From an uncultured Microbacterium sp. (lineage in GTDB: Bacteria; Actinomycetota; Actinomycetes; Actinomycetales; Microbacteriaceae), in assembly GCA_913774845.1 (NCBI GenBank), contig CAJYJO010000004.1:1-61713 (forward strand): a stretch of 61,713 nt of DNA, given 5' to 3'. A model generated the notes under the pieces. It was not told where the DNA came from, made no database searches, and saw nothing but the letters and a program-made list of their open reading frames with translations. Positions 9,992-21,021 of this stretch are shown piece by piece (position 1 is the first letter of the stretch; every line of letters begins with the position of its first letter). A program made the translations under genes and the position numbers.

Positions 9992-11143
9992 TCAGCGCAG
10001 CAGCAGGTTGGGCTGCAGGAGGTACTTGAACGAGCCTTCGCCGCCCTTGTCGACCGAGGTCTGCGGCGTCACCAGCACGGGGCTGAGCTTGTTCGCGTTG
10101 TCGCTCGAGGTGAACGTGATGCGCGTGAACTCGCTGCGGACCGCTCCGAGGGACTCGAGCAGGTACTGCGGGTTGAGCCCGAGGGTGACCTCGTCGCCGA
10201 CCAGCGTCGCATCGACCGACTCGGTCGCGCGAGCCTGCTCGGTACCCGACGCATCCATCGACACGCCCTCGGGACCGAAGCTGAAGCGCAGCGGCGCCGA
10301 CCGGTCGAGCACCAGGGCGACGCGACGGACGGCCTCGGCCAGCTCGGCGGTGTTGACCACGCTGTGGTGCTCGGTCTGCGCGGGGAACAGTCGGCGCACG
10401 GGCGGGAAGTTGCCCTTGATCAGCAGCGACGTGACGGTCTTGTTGCCCGACGAGAACGCGATGATCTCGCGATCGCCCGAGCCCGAGAAGGCGATCGAGA
10501 TGTCGCCGCCGTGCGCGAAGGTCTTGCCGACCTCCTGCAGGGTTCGCGCCGGAACCAGAGCGGAGGTGGGCTCATCGGATGCCGCCGCGCCGCCGTCCCA
10601 GGGGATCTCGCGGAGCGCGACGCGGTAGCGGTCGGTGGCGACCAGGCTCAGCTGCGTGCCGGTGACCTCGAGCTGCACGCCCGTGAGGACCGGGGTGACG
10701 TCGTCGCGGGACGCGGCGAAGGCGACTTGCGCGATCGCCGTGGCGAACTCGTCGGCCGGGACGAGGCCGGACTCACCGGTGACCTCGGGGATGGCCGGGT
10801 ACTCCTGCACCGGCATGGACGCGAGCGTGAACCGCGCGGAACCGCAAGTGAGCAGGATGCCGCCGTCGTCATCGACGGCGATCTGGATGGGAGCGTTCGG
10901 CAGGCGGCTGGCGATGTCGCTGAGGAGGCGGCCGTGGACGAGGATCGTGCCGGGCTCGTCGACCGTCGCCTCGATCGTCGTGCGGGCGGATGCCTCGTAG
11001 TCGAAGGCTGCGAGGGTGAGTCCCTGTTCGCCGGCCTCGATGAGCACACCGGCCAGGATCGGCTGCGGGTTGCGCTGAGGCAGGAGCTTGACCACGAACG
11101 AGACGGCTTCGCTGAACACATCGCGATTGACGTGGAACTTCAC
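9992..11143 (-). CDS. dnaN: DNA polymerase III beta sliding clamp
   Basis: The 383-residue protein is the ring-shaped clamp that tethers replicative polymerase. It begins MKFHVNRDVFSEAVSFVVKL and has the three-domain beta-clamp pattern with LLSDIASRLPNAPIQI, VATDRYRVALREI and the C-terminal YLLQPNLLLR, close to the usual YLLMPVRL ending. Start and length are standard. Upstream lies the dnaA-dnaN part of oriC; downstream is recF. Confidence 0.98.
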   Translation of the reverse strand: MKFHVNRDVFSEAVSFVVKLLPQRNPQPILAGVLIEAGEQGLTLAAFDYEASARTTIEATVDEPGTILVHGRLLSDIASRLPNAPIQIAVDDDGGILLTCGSARFTLASMPVQEYPAIPEVTGESGLVPADEFATAIAQVAFAASRDDVTPVLTGVQLEVTGTQLSLVATDRYRVALREIPWDGGAAASDEPTSALVPARTLQEVGKTFAHGGDISIAFSGSGDREIIAFSSGNKTVTSLLIKGNFPPVRRLFPAQTEHHSVVNTAELAEAVRRVALVLDRSAPLRFSFGPEGVSMDASGTEQARATESVDATLVGDEVTLGLNPQYLLESLGAVRSEFTRITFTSSDNANKLSPVLVTPQTSVDKGGEGSFKYLLQPNLLLR

Positions 11144-11288
11144 GGACGCTCCCTTGACGGCGGGTATGGCTTACCCATGCTAGTGCCCACTCCCCCGCGG
11201 CTCCGCCGAGCCCCGGCCGCACGGCGAGGTCATCGAATCTCTCTTAACAACGGGAAATGGTCTTCATCTTGTTAACCGCTGTGGAGAG

Positions 11289-11297
11289 TGTGGATAA
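11289..11297 (-). promoter_or_regulatory. DnaA box (perfect)
   Basis: TGTGGATAA on the plus strand is the perfect nine-base DnaA box TTATCCACA read on the minus strand, inside oriC. Confidence 0.85.
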
Positions 11298-11456
11298 CTG
11301 CCGGGATGCGTGTTAACAACAGGGATCGCGGTCGCTGTTAACTGTGGACGCGTTGCGGACAAGCTGGGTTGTTAACAGCGCCGACCGGTGGCCGCGGTGA
11401 CCGCTCCTCCACAGACTTAACGCGTCCGTGCACAGGTCATCCGCAGCAATGTGGAG

Positions 11457-11465
11457 TTATCCACA
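11457..11465 (+). promoter_or_regulatory. DnaA box (perfect)
   Basis: TTATCCACA is the consensus DnaA box. It is followed two bases later by a second, one-mismatch box, giving a tandem pair with 11-base spacing, close to one helical turn. Confidence 0.88.
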
Positions 11466-11467
11466 GG

Positions 11468-11476
11468 TTTTCCACA
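11468..11476 (+). promoter_or_regulatory. DnaA box (one mismatch)
   Basis: TTTTCCACA differs from the consensus at one base and is the downstream partner of the perfect box that ends at 11465. Confidence 0.75.
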
Positions 11477-11542
11477 CTGTGAAGAACCTCATCGAAAAGT
11501 GGTCGTCAGCGGCCGCAGAGCGCTGTTCGACGCCCGAAAACA

Positions 11543-11582
11543 CGAAGGGGGTTCGCTCACGGATGTGAACGAACCCCCTTCG
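11543..11582 (-). terminator. dnaA terminator
   Basis: A 13-base-pair perfect stem (CGAAGGGGGTTCG with its complement), continued by four more pairs after one mismatch and closed by GGAT, lies 12 bases past the dnaA stop. On the dnaA strand it is followed by TGTTTTC. It should stop dnaA transcription before it enters the dnaN-side origin segment. Confidence 0.8.
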
Positions 11583-11593
11583 GAGAACGGCTT

Positions 11594-15208: not shown

Positions 15209-15224
15209 CCCTGGGAAGATCACG

Positions 15225-15728
15225 ATGACGACGTCCGATCAGATCGCCGCCGAACCGACCGCCGCGACCGACGAGCAGCTCGAGCAGGAAGGCGACATCG
15301 CCGCCGACTACCTCGAGGGTCTGCTCGACATCGCCGACATCGATGGCGACCTCGCCCTCGACGTGCGCGCCGGCCGCGCGTACGTCTCGGTCGAAGCCGA
15401 TGACGCCGGTTCTCTGTCGGCCCTGTCTCACCCCGACACCGTGCAGGCTCTCCAGGAGCTGACGCGGCTGGCGGTGCAGAACTCGACGGGACGGTTCTCG
15501 CGCCTCATCCTCGACATCGGCGGCTCGCGCGACGCTCGCCAGCGGCAGCTGGAGACCCTCGTCGACCGGGCGATCTCCCGGCTCGAAGAGGGCGCGTCGC
15601 AGGCCTCGCTCCCGGCGATGTCGAGCTACGAGCGCAAGCTCGTGCACGACATCGCCGCTGATCGCGGGTACTCCTCCGAGTCGTTCGGCGAGGGCGCCGA
15701 CCGTCACACGGTCCTTCGACGCGGCTGA
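15225..15728 (+). CDS. jag: Jag-type KH/R3H RNA-binding protein
   Basis: The 167-residue protein has an acidic start, a KH-like region (LEGLLDIADIDGDLALDVR onward) and a C-terminal R3H domain (ERKLVHDIAADRGYSSES) with the Arg-x3-His signature. Jag/KhpB proteins are cytosolic RNA binders that sit beside yidC in Firmicutes and Actinobacteria. The ATG at 15225 has GGGAAG upstream. It lies 16 bases after yidC and eight before rsmG. Confidence 0.93.
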   Translation: MTTSDQIAAEPTAATDEQLEQEGDIAADYLEGLLDIADIDGDLALDVRAGRAYVSVEADDAGSLSALSHPDTVQALQELTRLAVQNSTGRFSRLILDIGGSRDARQRQLETLVDRAISRLEEGASQASLPAMSSYERKLVHDIAADRGYSSESFGEGADRHTVLRRG

Positions 15729-15736
15729 GACCCATC

Positions 15737-16366
15737 GTGCCGCAGCACCTCGAAGCGGAGCCGCTCGCCGCAGCCGATCTCTTCGGTGATCGTCTCGAGC
15801 TGGCACGACGTTTTACGGCGAACCTGGCCGCGCACGGCGAGGAGCGCGGACTGATCGGTCCGCTGGAGCTCCCGCGACTGTGGACCAGGCATATCCTCAA
15901 CAGCGCGATCGCTGCGCCGTTCTTCACGGGGCGTGCGGTCGACGTGGGATCGGGAGCGGGTCTTCCCGGACTCGTGCTCGCCATTGCTCGTCCCGACGTC
16001 GACTGGACCCTGATCGAGCCGATGGAGCGACGCACGCAGTGGCTCTCGGAGCAGGTCGAAGAGCTCGAACTCGACAACGTCACCGTCGCTCGTATGCGCG
16101 GGGAGGAGTGGCCGCACGGGCGTGTGTTCGACGTGGCTACGGCGCGCGCGGTGAGTGCTCTGCGCACACTGCTGCCGTTCACCGCTCCCCTGGTCCGCCC
16201 GGGCGGGAAACTGGTTTTCCTCAAGGGAGCCAACGTGGCGGCCGAGATCGACGCGGCATCGAAGCAGGTGCGAAAGTACGGGCTGCAGGACGTGTCGGTG
16301 GAGGTCGTCGGCGAGGGACTGCTGGAGGAACCGACGCGCGTGTTCCTCGCTACGGTCTCTCGCTGA
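15737..16366 (+). CDS. rsmG: 16S rRNA (guanine527-N7) methyltransferase RsmG
   Basis: RsmG (GidB) methylates G527 of 16S rRNA using S-adenosylmethionine. The 209-residue protein shows the SAM-binding motif AVDVGSGAGLPGLVLAIARP, the conserved RHILNS segment before it, and TARAVSALRTLLPFTAPLVRPGG. The start is the GTG at 15737; the upstream ribosome site is weak (GAGA). It ends the rpmH operon, immediately before the long gene-free parS region. Confidence 0.95.
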   Translation: MPQHLEAEPLAAADLFGDRLELARRFTANLAAHGEERGLIGPLELPRLWTRHILNSAIAAPFFTGRAVDVGSGAGLPGLVLAIARPDVDWTLIEPMERRTQWLSEQVEELELDNVTVARMRGEEWPHGRVFDVATARAVSALRTLLPFTAPLVRPGGKLVFLKGANVAAEIDAASKQVRKYGLQDVSVEVVGEGLLEEPTRVFLATVSR

Positions 16367-17276
16367 TTATCATATGTATAAATGTGGCGTAGCTCACCTC
16401 TGGGACGGCCGAGAATGAACGGTCGGCACCTCGGCGCGTGGACACACGACATCCCGTGCCGCACGGGTTTTCTCGGTAGCGAGGATGCCGACTGCTCGAC
16501 ATGAGGCACGGTGTGGCGTCGATGCTGAGCAGCCCGACTCTGTAGCGACGGGGTTCTTGTTGCGGTCCAAGATCCCGCGGGTCCTCAAGAGGGCGCGTTT
16601 CATCGTTCGCAGGACCTTCTCATTGAGTGGCGCTTGCGCCGGTGGTGAGCGCGAGCTGTCGCTCGGGGTTCTGAACTCGGTGCCCGTAAGAGAAGCTCAG
16701 CACCGCGGCGTCCCTGTCGTGGGTTTGTGGCCAATGGGCATCCCCCATTCTCGGCTTTGTGGCCTTCTCGGGCTGGTCGCCGCAGGCGCTGGGTAGGCCG
16801 GCACTGGTTTCGTGCTCATGCGTGCAGGACCCCCGGATGGCCCCGTCGTACGTGCGGCCCTGCTGCGGAAGACGTCGCGCCCGCCCGGCTGGTCCCGCGG
16901 GGTTGGTTCTCTGCTCGGTGCCCGCGGCTCATCGTGCCCTATCGCGCTATCCGCTGCTCCCCCCTTGTCTTGCCTTATGCGGGTGGAAGTCGAGCGGGTC
17001 ATCCTCGACTGTGACGGGAAGTCGATTCTTGAATTCCTCCGCGATCCGCCTTCCCATCTCTGAACGTCCGTGACGTGTATGAGACGCGGTGGTTCGATCG
17101 CCCCCTCGGACACATTCCCACGACCCCGCGTGCGGGGAGACTGCTGTGTGCTCGATCTGGGCTTCACGGCGGCGGACAGGTTCGACTAGTCGCCCTGTGA
17201 CGGGTGGTGCAAGCTCTCTCTGGAGTGAGCTTCACAAGCCGGGAGCTGCCGACCGCATTGTGCGTACCGGCGGAGT

Positions 17277-17292
17277 TGTTTCACGTGAAACA
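17277..17292. other. parS site 1 (perfect)
   Basis: TGTTTCACGTGAAACA is the exact 16-base palindromic parS consensus, the ParB binding site. Confidence 0.95.
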
Positions 17293-17461
17293 CCCGCTGG
17301 CTGGACGGGCTGGAGGGGCGTGATGATCGCGGCGACGGCGCGTGTGCAGCTCCACGTGTGTCGAGCGCTTCTTTGCGAGCGCGAGGGGATACGTCCGTTC
17401 CCGGCCATCAGGGGTGCGGAGCAGGAACAGATGCGCCGCTCTCGCTGCGCGCTGCGTTTGC

Positions 17462-17477
17462 TGTTTCACGTGAAACA
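17462..17477. other. parS site 2 (perfect)
   Basis: TGTTTCACGTGAAACA, an exact match to the consensus, 185 bases after site 1. Confidence 0.95.
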
Positions 17478-18288
17478 TCGCCGCCCAAGCGATGAAGGGG
17501 CCCGAGGCGGGGGGTCCCCTGTACCGTCGCTGGCGCGTCGGTCACGAGACGGGGTTGCGATGATCTGCGGCCGACGTGATGAGAAACGAGCGGCGTGCGG
17601 CGGCAAGGCTTTCGGATTCCCCGCCAGCTTTGATGACTATGCCTGCGGACAAGGAAGGCGAGCCTCCTTCCGCTTCATCTCCATCGGTCGCCACGCCAAA
17701 GCTACGGATCCTCCTGTCTTTGGCTGATCGACGGGTCGTAGACCCGTCGATACGCCTGCCGTGATGGGCGGTTCCGCGCGCGATCACCGGGAAGGTGGAG
17801 GATGAGGGTGAGCACTCCGGTGACGTGAGCGCTGCGTCCCTTCAGTACGGCCTCCCGAAGCTTTCCGGTCCCAATGCCAGCCACTCCCCCGGGTGTCGCG
17901 AGAACCCCCCATGGCCTACGCGCCATGACACCTCGCTGCGACGAGGTCGTCCGCCTCGGCCACTGGCGCGGGACACGTCGTGAATGCGGGAACGGCTGGG
18001 CCGCGTCGCACCGGGCTACTCCTAAGAGTGATCGGTCGTTTCGGACCCATCTTTCTGTTGCCCTGGCCTCTGGGACGTGAGAGTTCAACGGGATGGCATA
18101 CAGTCCTACAAGTTTGGACCTGGTGCTGATTAACGCTCCATGACGTGAGTGCGAGCGATGAGCGAGAATCCGACAGTCGACCGCGGGCAGGTGGGACGGG
18201 CAGAGCCGCAGTCGACGAAGTGCGCCGGGGGCGACGGCTCTGCAGCCTCCGAGACGGGTTCGCGTATGTAGAGCATGCGGCACGCTGG

Positions 18289-18304
18289 GGTTTCACGTGA
18301 AACA
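18289..18304. other. parS site 3 (one mismatch)
   Basis: GGTTTCACGTGAAACA differs from consensus only at the outermost base. Confidence 0.9.
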
Positions 18305-18721
18305 TCGATGCCCTCAACACAGGGCAGATCCTGTTCATGTGCGACAACACGAGTGCGGTCTGGCAGGAGACTTCCCACCTCGCTGACCTGACCTCAGCGC
18401 GGCTGCTCAGACCGCATCATTGCTCCAAGACGGGCGGTAAGGACTCGGTGGAGGGCGTGGCACGCACACGAAGGTTCGAGAAATCCGTAGACAGAACGGG
18501 CGATCCAGGATTGCAGGCATCGACACGAGACCTCCGCGTTATCACACCTTGTGCGCGGTGTGGACTCATGTCCACACGGCTCAGGCGCACGGCGTAGAAC
18601 GCGGGTACTCCCCTTCGATAGGGATGGCGCACTGACCGCCGGATTCGATCTATGACGCATCCTCGGCGCCCAGCATTGTCAGACTCCCGTCGCATGTGTC
18701 CGCGACCTCTCGCGTCTGAAG

Positions 18722-18737
18722 GGTTTCACGTGAAACC
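18722..18737. other. parS site 4 (two symmetric mismatches)
   Basis: GGTTTCACGTGAAACC keeps the 14-base palindromic core and changes both outer bases symmetrically, so the site is still a perfect palindrome. Confidence 0.85.
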
Positions 18738-18861
18738 TCGCGCAACTCGTCCGATCGAACACTCATGCCGCGCGCTTCATTGGAGCGGTTCTCGCACTGT
18801 TCGTAGATCCGGTTTCGAAGGTGCACGTCGTTGCGTGGTTGGATACCGTCGGGCCAGCAGT

Positions 18862-18877
18862 GGTTTCACGTGAAACA
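18862..18877. other. parS site 5 (one mismatch)
   Basis: GGTTTCACGTGAAACA, the same variant as site 3, 140 bases after site 4. Confidence 0.9.
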
Positions 18878-18996
18878 TGTCGTGCCTCGGGGAGTGTCTG
18901 GATGTCCATCGCTGTCGTTCGATCTCCGTGATGGTACTGAGACCTCCCAGGTCGAGTTGAGACGTCTGGAGGTCAGATCGGTCTATCGGTGCTGCA

Positions 18997-19012
18997 TGTC
19001 TCACGTGAAACG
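18997..19012. other. parS site 6 (two mismatches)
   Basis: TGTCTCACGTGAAACG has the CACGTGAAAC half intact but a substitution in the TTT run and at the last base. It is probably a weaker site. Confidence 0.75.
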
Positions 19013-19121
19013 GTTGACTACACACTCGACGCGCCCGCAGTCACAACCGGTGCGCTGCTCCGAACCCGCAAGTGATGTCGGAGCACCCGGGTAGACTGGG
19101 GGCGTTCGCGACGGTGGAAGG

Positions 19122-19137
19122 TGTTTCACGTGAAACA
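19122..19137. other. parS site 7 (perfect, over the parA start)
   Basis: TGTTTCACGTGAAACA overlaps the parA start codon region, so ParB bound here would lie over the parA ribosome site and first codons. Confidence 0.95.
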
Positions 19138-20050
19138 GTCTGGTGAGGCGGCCGCGTCGTCTTCTTTCGACGACTCCCCCATCGCCCGAGAGATCGCGGA
19201 TCTGTCTGCGCGACGGCGTGCCCTCGAGGCTGCGAAGGTCGAGCTGTCGGGACGCACGCGCGTCTTCACGGTGTCGAACCAGAAGGGCGGCGTCGGCAAG
19301 ACGACGACCGCCGTCAACATCGCAGCCGCTCTCGTCTCCGTCGGCGCGCGCGTCCTCGTGATCGATCTCGATCCGCAGGGCAACGCGTCCACCGCGCTCG
19401 GGGTGGCGCACAATGCCGAGACGCCCAGCGTCTACGACGTGCTGATCGATGAGTTCCCGCTCGCGGACATCGTCCAGGAGAGCCCGGAGTCACCGAATCT
19501 GCTGTGCGCGCCCAGCACGATCCACCTTGCGGGTGCGGAGATCGAGCTCGTCTCTCAGGTAGCTCGTGAGCACCGCTTGCGCGGCGCGTTGCGTGACTAC
19601 CTGGCCGCTGCTGACACAACGCATCTCGACTTCGTCATCATCGACTGCCCACCTTCTCTGGGTCTGCTGACCATCAACGCCTTCACCGCGGCCGACGAGG
19701 TGATGATCCCGATTCAGTGTGAGTACTACGCCCTCGAGGGTCTGAGCCAACTGCTCGGCAGTGTGCAGATGATCCAGAAGCATCTGAACCCCGGGCTGCA
19801 TGTGTCGACGATCCTCCTCACCATGTACGACGGCCGTACTCGGCTCGCGCAGCAGGTCGCGGACGAGGTCCGCTCGCACTTCACGCACGAGGTGCTGCGC
19901 ACGGTGATCCCGCGGTCGGTCCGTGTCTCCGAGGCGCCGAGCTTCGGCCAGACGGTCATCGCGTACGATGGCCAGTCAGCGGGCGCCATCGCTTACCGCG
20001 AAGCCGCGGTCGAAATCGTTGCACGCGACACCACGAAGAAGGGCTCCTGA
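19130..20050 (+). CDS. parA: Chromosome partitioning ATPase ParA
   Basis: ParA is the Walker-type ATPase that drives origin segregation with ParB-parS. The 306-residue protein has the deviant Walker A KGGVGKTT at residues 52-59, then LVIDLDPQGNAST and IIDCPPSLGLLT. An N-terminal helix precedes the ATPase domain. I choose the GTG at 19130 because a GGAAGG site at 19116-19121 is eight bases upstream; a start at 19121 (reading MFHVKQ) would touch that site and is less likely but possible. parS site 7 covers this start. parB follows with a one-base overlap. Confidence 0.96.
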   Translation: MKQSGEAAASSSFDDSPIAREIADLSARRRALEAAKVELSGRTRVFTVSNQKGGVGKTTTAVNIAAALVSVGARVLVIDLDPQGNASTALGVAHNAETPSVYDVLIDEFPLADIVQESPESPNLLCAPSTIHLAGAEIELVSQVAREHRLRGALRDYLAAADTTHLDFVIIDCPPSLGLLTINAFTAADEVMIPIQCEYYALEGLSQLLGSVQMIQKHLNPGLHVSTILLTMYDGRTRLAQQVADEVRSHFTHEVLRTVIPRSVRVSEAPSFGQTVIAYDGQSAGAIAYREAAVEIVARDTTKKGS

Positions 20051-21021
20051 TGGCTAAAAGGACTGGATTGGGCCGCGGGATCGGCGCCCTCATCCCCACC
20101 GCAGAACCGTCGGAGTCTCGGCCGGTCGACGTCTTCTTCCCGGGCGGCTCGACGGCGCAGAAGACAGAGGCGTCGCCCGAGGTCGACACTGCCGTCGTCG
20201 ACGACCAGCTCGTGTCGGTGCCCGGAGCACGGTTGATCCAGATCGACCCCAAGACCATCGTCCCCAACCCGCGACAGCCGCGTACGCACTTCGACGCCGA
20301 CGATCTCGCCGAGCTCGTCCACTCGGTGCGCGAGTTCGGTGTTCTGCAACCTGTCGTCGTCCGCGATAAGGGCGACGGCACGTACGAGCTCATCATGGGA
20401 GAACGACGCACCCGCGCCTCGCGCGAGGCGGGTCTCGACTCCATCCCGGCGGTCGTTCGCGAGACCGAAGACGAGTACCTGCTGCGTGACGCACTGCTCG
20501 AGAACCTGCACCGCTCTCAGCTGAATCCGCTCGAGGAGGCCTCGGCCTACCAGCAGCTGCTCGAGGACTTCGGGATCACGCAGGAGGAGCTCGCAACGCG
20601 TATCGGGCGATCCCGGCCGCAGATCAGCAACACCATCCGACTGTTGAAGCTCCCGGTACCGGTGCAGCAGCGTGTGGCCGCGGGCGTGTTGAGCGCGGGG
20701 CACGCGCGGGCGATCCTGTCGCTCGACGACCCGAAGGAGATGCAGAGGCTCGCTGACAAGATCGTCAACGAAGATCTGTCGGTGCGCGCCGCCGAAGCGG
20801 CGGCCAAGATGCCCGGCGTCGCGCCGGTTCGGCAGAAACCGCGCGCCGGCAGTCAGCGTTCCGGGCTCGACGAGGTCGCGGAGCGCCTCGGAGATCGCTT
20901 CGACACCAAGGTGCGGGTGTCTCTCACGGCACGAAAAGGCCAGATCAGCATAGATTTCGCGACTGTGCAGGACCTCAATCGCATCCTCGCCGTCTTGGGT
21001 GAAGAGGGTTACACCGGCTGA
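20050..21021 (+). CDS. parB: ParB centromere-binding protein
   Basis: ParB binds parS and spreads as a CTP-dependent clamp. The 323-residue protein starts MAKRTGLGRGIGALIP, has the N-terminal domain with PRTHFDADDLAELVHSVREFG and IMGERRTRAS (CTP-binding GERR type motif), the helix-turn-helix ELATRIGRSRPQISNTIRLL, and a C-terminal dimerisation domain. The ATG at 20050 shares its A with the parA stop. The rich field of parS sites upstream is its likely target. Confidence 0.97.
   Translation: MAKRTGLGRGIGALIPTAEPSESRPVDVFFPGGSTAQKTEASPEVDTAVVDDQLVSVPGARLIQIDPKTIVPNPRQPRTHFDADDLAELVHSVREFGVLQPVVVRDKGDGTYELIMGERRTRASREAGLDSIPAVVRETEDEYLLRDALLENLHRSQLNPLEEASAYQQLLEDFGITQEELATRIGRSRPQISNTIRLLKLPVPVQQRVAAGVLSAGHARAILSLDDPKEMQRLADKIVNEDLSVRAAEAAAKMPGVAPVRQKPRAGSQRSGLDEVAERLGDRFDTKVRVSLTARKGQISIDFATVQDLNRILAVLGEEGYTG

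Follow-up and report, generated by a model that had tools for sequence, protein, structure and literature searches.

Why should a bacterial chromosome keep nearly three kilobases without a recognisable gene just upstream of parA, and what do the parS sites in such a stretch have in common with each other and with those of related species? The question is raised by the window, i.e. the whole stretch of 61,713 nucleotides analysed here, which belongs to an uncultured Microbacterium sp. (assembly GCA_913774845.1, contig CAJYJO010000004.1, forward strand). An earlier note on this DNA had pointed to seven parS-like sites of graded quality and had proposed that a dense field with strong outer and weaker inner sites could set how ParB clamps load and where condensation begins. 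The property that matters could be the order of strong and weak sites, their number, the length of the stretch or the DNA between the sites.

Seven parS sites in a gene-free stretch beside parAB

A search of the window with TGTTTCACGTGAAACA, allowing up to three mismatches, gives seven matches in 61.7 kb where 0.06 are expected by chance, and 0 of 100 shuffles reach this number. The seven sites are indeed where the earlier note had placed them, between 17277 and 19137, and their quality is as it had been described: the sites at 17277, 17462 and 19122 are exact, and the four inner ones carry one or two changes, three of the four differing solely at the outermost bases.

17277..17292, no strand assigned: parS site 1, 0 mismatches, exact consensus
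17462..17477, no strand assigned: parS site 2, 0 mismatches, exact consensus
18289..18304, no strand assigned: parS site 3, 1 mismatch, G at position 1
18722..18737, no strand assigned: parS site 4, 2 mismatches, at positions 1 and 16 only
18862..18877, no strand assigned: parS site 5, 1 mismatch, G at position 1
18997..19012, no strand assigned: parS site 6, 2 mismatches, a core T to C at position 4 (TGTCTC...) and one outermost base
19122..19137, no strand assigned: parS site 7, exact consensus, inside parA codons 1-6

Site 7 encodes the start of parA (GTG TTT CAC GTG AAA CAG, from reading frame and translation), and sites 1-6 are all contained in 2.75 kb of DNA in which no gene is recognisable. 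Their spacing is irregular (CV 0.83, p 0.63). A scan of the whole draft genome (55 contigs, 3.37 Mb), which the earlier note had proposed, found only two further places within three mismatches (C10 and C14), each with three mismatches and with changes inside the core; there are no equal clusters elsewhere. The gene order of the region is recF and dnaN (minus), dnaA (minus), then rnpA, yidD, yidC, jag, rsmG, the field, parA and parB (plus).

11144..11593, no strand assigned: dnaN-dnaA intergenic region, presumed oriC (dnaN 9992-11143, dnaA 11594-13360; lower GC, 0.58-0.60)
15222..15728, plus strand: jag, a conserved neighbour (R3H domain, Jag_EloR)
15737..16366, plus strand: rsmG (gidB), the upstream border of the field (Pfam GidB, E 1.4e-43)
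16367..19120, 2,754 bp, no strand assigned: gene-free parS field between rsmG and parA, with no periodicity and no Pfam or Rfam match
19121..20050, plus strand: parA (ParA family matches, translation)
20050..21021, plus strand: parB (TIGR00180 ParB, E 1.1e-58, translation)

The translated ParB carries a GERRTR motif, which we take to be the CTP-site motif, and its closest relatives among named records are from Microbacterium, several of them M. testaceum, with 87-90% identity. A full-length copy of SMC is present in the genome. Several sequence features of a chromosomal ParABS centromere are found together in the window: palindromic sites, adjoining parA and parB genes, and a position about 6-8 kb from the dnaA/dnaN boundary, where oriC itself is presumed. 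The sequence supports the identification of the seven sites as parS, and a ParB-loading field would be the natural reading because the sites are clustered, adjoin parAB, lie near dnaA/dnaN and have no good copies elsewhere. To this extent the dense loading field of the earlier note stands; the role that it gave to the strong-to-weak order does not, as discussed below.

Every test applied to the field indicates non-coding DNA. Its 3-base periodicity has a mean of 0.10 and a maximum of 0.17, versus 0.39 in parAB. Three overlapping non-periodic runs extend over 16291-19290, the longest of 2,130 bp, and the next longest such run elsewhere in the window is 720 bp. One could suspect that the spacer is occupied by a gene or RNA not yet recognised, as it has two ORFs of 212 aa and 193 aa at a GC content of 63%. 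However, the longest stop-free stretch of 214 aa compares with a shuffle median of 224, codon periodicity is absent, and almost nothing of this DNA is conserved in relatives. None of the seven ORFs of at least 100 aa in or touching the field has a Pfam match at E 0.1, an Rfam search of the field gives no match, and tblastx of the spacer returns scattered short matches only, with no consistent frame. A gene or RNA in this spacer is scarcely credible, and was rejected on the lack of Pfam and Rfam matches and of periodicity.

Spacer length and parS number in the genus

For comparison, 119 genomes of the genus were sampled, of which 118, the window's own included, have ParB. Loci were taken from 111 of the 117 relatives, parB lying less than 4 kb from a contig start in the other six. 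With the window this makes 112 loci, from which three without full rsmG were dropped, leaving 109 with rsmG and parA in order. From 80 further named loci, seven without rsmG in reach and 24 duplicates were dropped and 49 were added, giving a total of 158.

In the 109 loci the rsmG-parA spacer has a median length of 2.05 kb and ranges from -26 to 11,391 bp; that of the window is the 74th from the shortest. The number of parS sites (at most two mismatches, in the spacer or at the parA start) has a median of 7 and a range of 0-17, and it rises with spacer length (Spearman 0.86). In total, 729 parS sites were counted in this way versus 0 in one shuffle of all spacers. A further 102 sites with at most two mismatches lie outside the spacers, in the flanks (899 kb fetched), and many of these are close to the start of rsmG. 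Sites are densest, at about 19 per kb, in spacers shorter than 300 bp, a class that holds 26 of 156 Microbacterium loci; at 4-10 kb the density is down to 1.8 per kb. At the extremes, L081 has two sites and a spacer of about 90 bp, and L108/L166 have 20 sites, counted with at most three mismatches, in 7.8 kb. Spacing between sites is more regular than random (mean CV 0.58 versus 0.79), with 30 of 119 loci below p 0.05, and genome size explains little of the spacer length (rho 0.36, 108 genomes).

Long spacers are largely non-coding in the genus also. The 90 spacers of at least 700 bp have a periodicity of 0.107, compared with 0.081 in shuffles and 0.385 in parAB. In seven of them the longest ORF is above the 95% shuffle rank, which means that a minority of spacers hold gene-like parts. 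A stretch of about 1.16 kb among the parS sites of the L168 and L115 spacers is 84% identical between the two and has codon-like periodicity in part of each; it is probably a gene that entered the field. A steady strand bias without recognised genes was also observed, with a mean GC skew of 0.062, positive in 115 of 120 spacers longer than 1 kb, and a negative AT skew in 99 of them. Finally, words like CGTATCGAGA occur in 21 loci versus 0.4 expected, the spacers of about 10-20 loci being involved, and probably represent a dispersed palindromic repeat; enriched TATCGA-type words resemble dispersed repeats in some loci.

Quality and order of the sites

Is the succession of strong outer and weak inner sites a design? 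In the window it is literally there, and a parS with two substitutions binds about 10-fold more weakly according to the data cited from PMC3778016. Strong outer and weak inner sites could in principle decide where ParB loading begins or which way it proceeds. In the window alone, the perfect sites have ranks 1, 2 and 7, and random placement gives a perfect site at both ends in 5 of 35 arrangements. The genus allows a better test. With all sites included, a gradient is apparent (p = 1.5e-7), owing to the parA-start site, which also codes for protein; this parS is present in 116 of the 158 Microbacterium loci and exact in 79. In the 103 loci with at least five sites when the parA-start site is not counted, outer minus inner mismatches amount to -0.06 (Wilcoxon p = 0.40), and the outer-inner gradient was rejected on this result. 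Moreover, the order of strong and weak sites varies between relatives, and the changes are mostly at the least conserved positions. We thus consider it very unlikely that the order of sites has the role proposed by the earlier note.

Site quality itself was described from 953 sites (at most three mismatches, outside the parA start) in the 158 loci. The inner 14-mer is perfect in 791 of them. At the ends, 39% have a base other than T at position 1, mainly C, and 43% a base other than A at position 16, mainly G. The mismatches of the window fall mainly on these outermost, least conserved bases. The G that its sites 3 and 5 have at position 1 is a rarer variant in the genus (41 of the 953 sites), and the C at position 4 of its site 6 occurs in nine. 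No helical phasing of parS spacings was found in the genus loci (vector 0.03), nor, in the genus spacers, a second conserved motif beside parS outside positions -1 to 18. In the same set, 51 sites have G at position 12 and about half as many, 23, have C at its palindromic partner, position 5. This could mean that parS variants have a preferred orientation relative to parA, with the reservation that repeats may inflate the figure.

Turnover of the DNA between parS sites

In long spacers, the DNA between the sites, here called filler, changes rapidly from one species to another. In the clade of the window (28 loci, spacers of 2.2-6.3 kb) the alignable share of the spacer between species has a median of 0.0 and a maximum of 0.34, with parA 78-96% identical. 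In ten pairs whose spacers measure about 4-8 kb, homology covers 0-36% of the spacer, versus 83-100% of flanks of 5-16 kb. Short spacers behave differently, with 93-100% covered in three pairs with spacers of 0.7-1.4 kb. One pair of 1.9-2.4 kb has 28%. The extreme case is L070/L203, where the two loci are homologous up to the stop codon of rsmG and again from 48 bp upstream of parA, and the aligned spacers are at the shuffled level. Identity at fourfold sites in this pair is 0.80-0.90 in yidC, parA, parB and trxA, but 0.65 in jag and 0.52 in rsmG; with 0.90 in parA and 0.52 in rsmG, the two sides of the spacer may differ in history (recombination).

The sites can stay in place while the filler goes. 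In L066/L197, the best of 517 pairs with equal site number, all eight parS are collinear and their spacing correlates at r 0.994, while filler segments 1-7 are 0.41-0.60 identical versus 0.38-0.52 in shuffles. The first segment, which includes a gene-like part, is 0.73 identical, and fourfold-site identity is 0.75-0.88 in yidC, jag, rsmG, parA and parB. A second collinear pair, L071/L072, has a spacing r of 0.964 and 1% filler homology. The first 0.8-1.6 kb after rsmG is homologous within each of the pairs L066/L197 and L189/L191, and the periodicity is coding-like over roughly the initial 0.6 kb.

As a control, 200 kb from each of two relatives, the genomes G123 and G081, were analysed. Outside the field, their longest non-coding-like runs are 740 and 640 bp; the same rule gives about 1.9 kb inside the spacer of L115, which also has a gene-like part, and 2.7 kb in that of L114. 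For 22 such runs of G123 with homologous flanks in G081, 84% of the length is covered (length-weighted, single runs 22-100%) with about 89% identity where covered, while the spacers of this pair (4,974 and 5,644 bp) are covered to 8%; the periodicity rule is crude, so some runs may hold coding parts, and about half of the sampled G123 DNA is homologous.

Tandem repeats, heritability and occurrence beyond the genus

A spacing rule requiring at least three evenly spaced units selects 21 of the 158 loci as possible repeats. True tandem repeats with one parS per unit are found in 13 of the 158; the rest of the unit is 0.69-0.95 identical and the parS core 0.89-1.00. In L166, for instance, ten units of about 290 bp have a parS core identity of 0.93 and an identity of 0.69 in the rest. 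The eight further evenly spaced loci, the window included, have a rest of unit that is 0.41-0.60 identical, which is no evidence of repeats. For the window in particular, the unit identity is 0.41 and TRF finds no tandem repeat over the parS sites; two of the 13 repeat loci (L186 and L187) nevertheless belong to its clade.

On a FastTree tree of jag, rsmG, ParA and ParB from 156 loci, the log of spacer length follows that of the nearest relative (Spearman 0.83), and at least 11 switches between spacers shorter than 300 bp and spacers of at least 1 kb are needed (144 loci). In 76 pairs with parA at least 86% identical and less than 20% filler homology, the mean |ln ratio| of length is 0.21, versus 0.79 for random pairs of the genus; these pairs come from 40 related loci and are not independent.

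Beyond the genus, 40 loci of the order were fetched from 56 genomes with ParB, two of them from another genus of the same family. Their median spacer is 366 bp, and 13 reach 1 kb, 11 of which have a periodicity of at most 0.17. These long spacers come from six families, the window's own included, so a long field is not unique to Microbacterium, and most of the order is without it. In the other genus of the family, spacers of 2.8-3.5 kb contain only three core-matching sites. In three loci of one family (L293, L296 and L298; code f8) ParB is present and no parS with at most one core mismatch occurs in the fetched 11 kb; for L298, the whole genome (G041) contains no such parS either.

What could the field be?

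The reading that we prefer, with a probability of roughly 0.55, is that 16367-19137 is the ParB loading field (centromere) of the chromosome, grown by duplication and kept for the number of its parS sites and its span, not for its sequence. ParB-CTP clamps would load at each parS and slide over DNA that is poor in promoters and bound proteins. On such roadblock-poor DNA the clamps would concentrate, condense the region, engage ParA and help to load SMC. The field would grow by tandem duplication of parS-bearing units, whose copies would then decay while parS is retained. Since copies decay and parS stays, selection would act on the number of sites and the gene-free span and not on the filler sequence or the strong-to-weak order. 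Both the clamp function and the selection on span are inferred by us from sequence comparisons. In vitro, sliding ParB is stopped by bound proteins, and observing condensation took five to seven sites in one assay, as the cited part of PMC8299390 describes; from the viewpoint of avoiding SMC collisions, scattered parS seem counterproductive (PMC8357415, in the part cited). About seven sites in gene-free DNA are consistent with a loading strip that has few roadblocks, but many relatives do with a small number of sites and next to no spacer. As 26 of the 156 loci are below 300 bp and a single parS suffices for wild-type-like growth in C. glutamicum (PMC7083940, part cited), a long field is not required. 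Other observations count against a loading field as well. The sites of the window are irregularly spaced and show no remnant of repeats, 102 parS of relatives lie outside the spacer, the spacers of L115 and L168 are not gene-free, and the other genus of the family combines its long spacers with only three core-matching sites. The loci compared are also related to one another and not independent. The alike spacing of intervals of 129, 91 and 164 bp could reflect rare indels alone.

Alternatively, the spacer could be passive junk, i.e. a neutral stretch grown by chance through duplication and dead insertions, in which deletions tend to remove parS or damage essential neighbours, so that the sites matter and the length does not. 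This is the most serious rival, possible but less probable in our judgement. It would explain that the filler has no conserved motif tied to parS (flank information away from the site averages 0.005 bits), that tandem units decay and that gene-like segments occur in the spacers of L115, L168, L066 and L197. It accounts less well for non-coding-like runs in spacers that are longer than those found elsewhere in the control genomes, for the similar spacer length of relatives that share little filler, and for the long non-coding fields in other families of the order. A further idea, rather unlikely but compatible with the loading field, is that the spacer is a hypermutable or recombination-prone zone. 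Here mutation or gene conversion would be increased by the coat of ParB on the DNA or by repeats close to the origin, and filler would be lost faster than neutral DNA. The genes of L070/L203 remain alignable where filler homology is absent, as this idea would have it. However, low fourfold-site identity of rsmG is seen in short-gap pairs too (0.67, 0.64 and 0.52), so a mutation-rate gradient towards the spacer is not supported; codon preference may hold fourfold sites back, and short spacers remain alignable. Fourfold sites are no clean neutral clock here, and hypermutation is therefore not claimed.

Extending the loading-field reading from the window to its relatives is more tentative, and we would put it at somewhat less than an even chance. 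Microbacterium and some other actinobacteria would have a regional centromere, largely gene-free and up to about 11 kb long. Selection would maintain how many parS sites it has, their order and approximate spacing, and the total span, while repeat expansion and very fast decay would renew the filler. The size of this centromere would be evolvable, with at least 11 changes within one genus between less than 300 bp and at least 1 kb.

Relation to known systems and significance

As a parS cluster the field of the window is ordinary, since dense parS arrays are already known. The statement of the earlier note that many bacteria scatter parS over a wider area is too strong: most cluster within 5-40 kb (PMC8357415, in the part cited). 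Myxococcus xanthus also has a dense array upstream of parA, with 22 sites in 3 kb at about 4 kb upstream (PMC3899335, PMC3778016); it is denser than that of the window, and the parts of these two papers used here report no gene-free filler, interspecies turnover or genus-wide scaling. In the actinobacterium Corynebacterium glutamicum, nine of ten 16-bp sites (parS 1-10) are intergenic, but they are spread over 35 kb and located 73 kb from oriC, as far as the cited part of PMC7083940 goes. Caulobacter crescentus has seven putative graded sites (parS 1-7) located some 8 kb from ori, and its five strongest fall within 5 kb; the sites are situated within essential or high-fitness-cost genes and not in a gene-free field (PMC5815017, part cited). 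Mycobacterium shares the gidB-parA-parB order, and M. bovis BCG has parS near the gidB start and inside parA; however, there are two sites, and in M. smegmatis gidB and parA overlap, leaving no room between them (PMC2346475, part cited). This mycobacterial layout is plausibly a minimal form and probably the starting layout.

The satellite (regional) centromeres of eukaryotes consist of tandem units that each carry one protein-binding box, with fast-changing filler and conserved function. The likeness to the parS field is an analogy only, with no shared proteins and no epigenetic definition. Among the titles and abstract starts of the open-licence literature, we found no description of parS fields in Microbacterium or of a gene-free rsmG-parA field. 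The field is new as a variant because of three traits: it has no genes, its size differs from species to species, and the DNA between its sites is renewed.

The growth and turnover of a bacterial centromere may be open to study in this genus. A single genus offers 158 natural versions, with repeats at various stages of decay, which makes the question testable with close relatives. It also provides a natural test of the sliding-clamp model, namely whether ParB fields need roadblock-free DNA.
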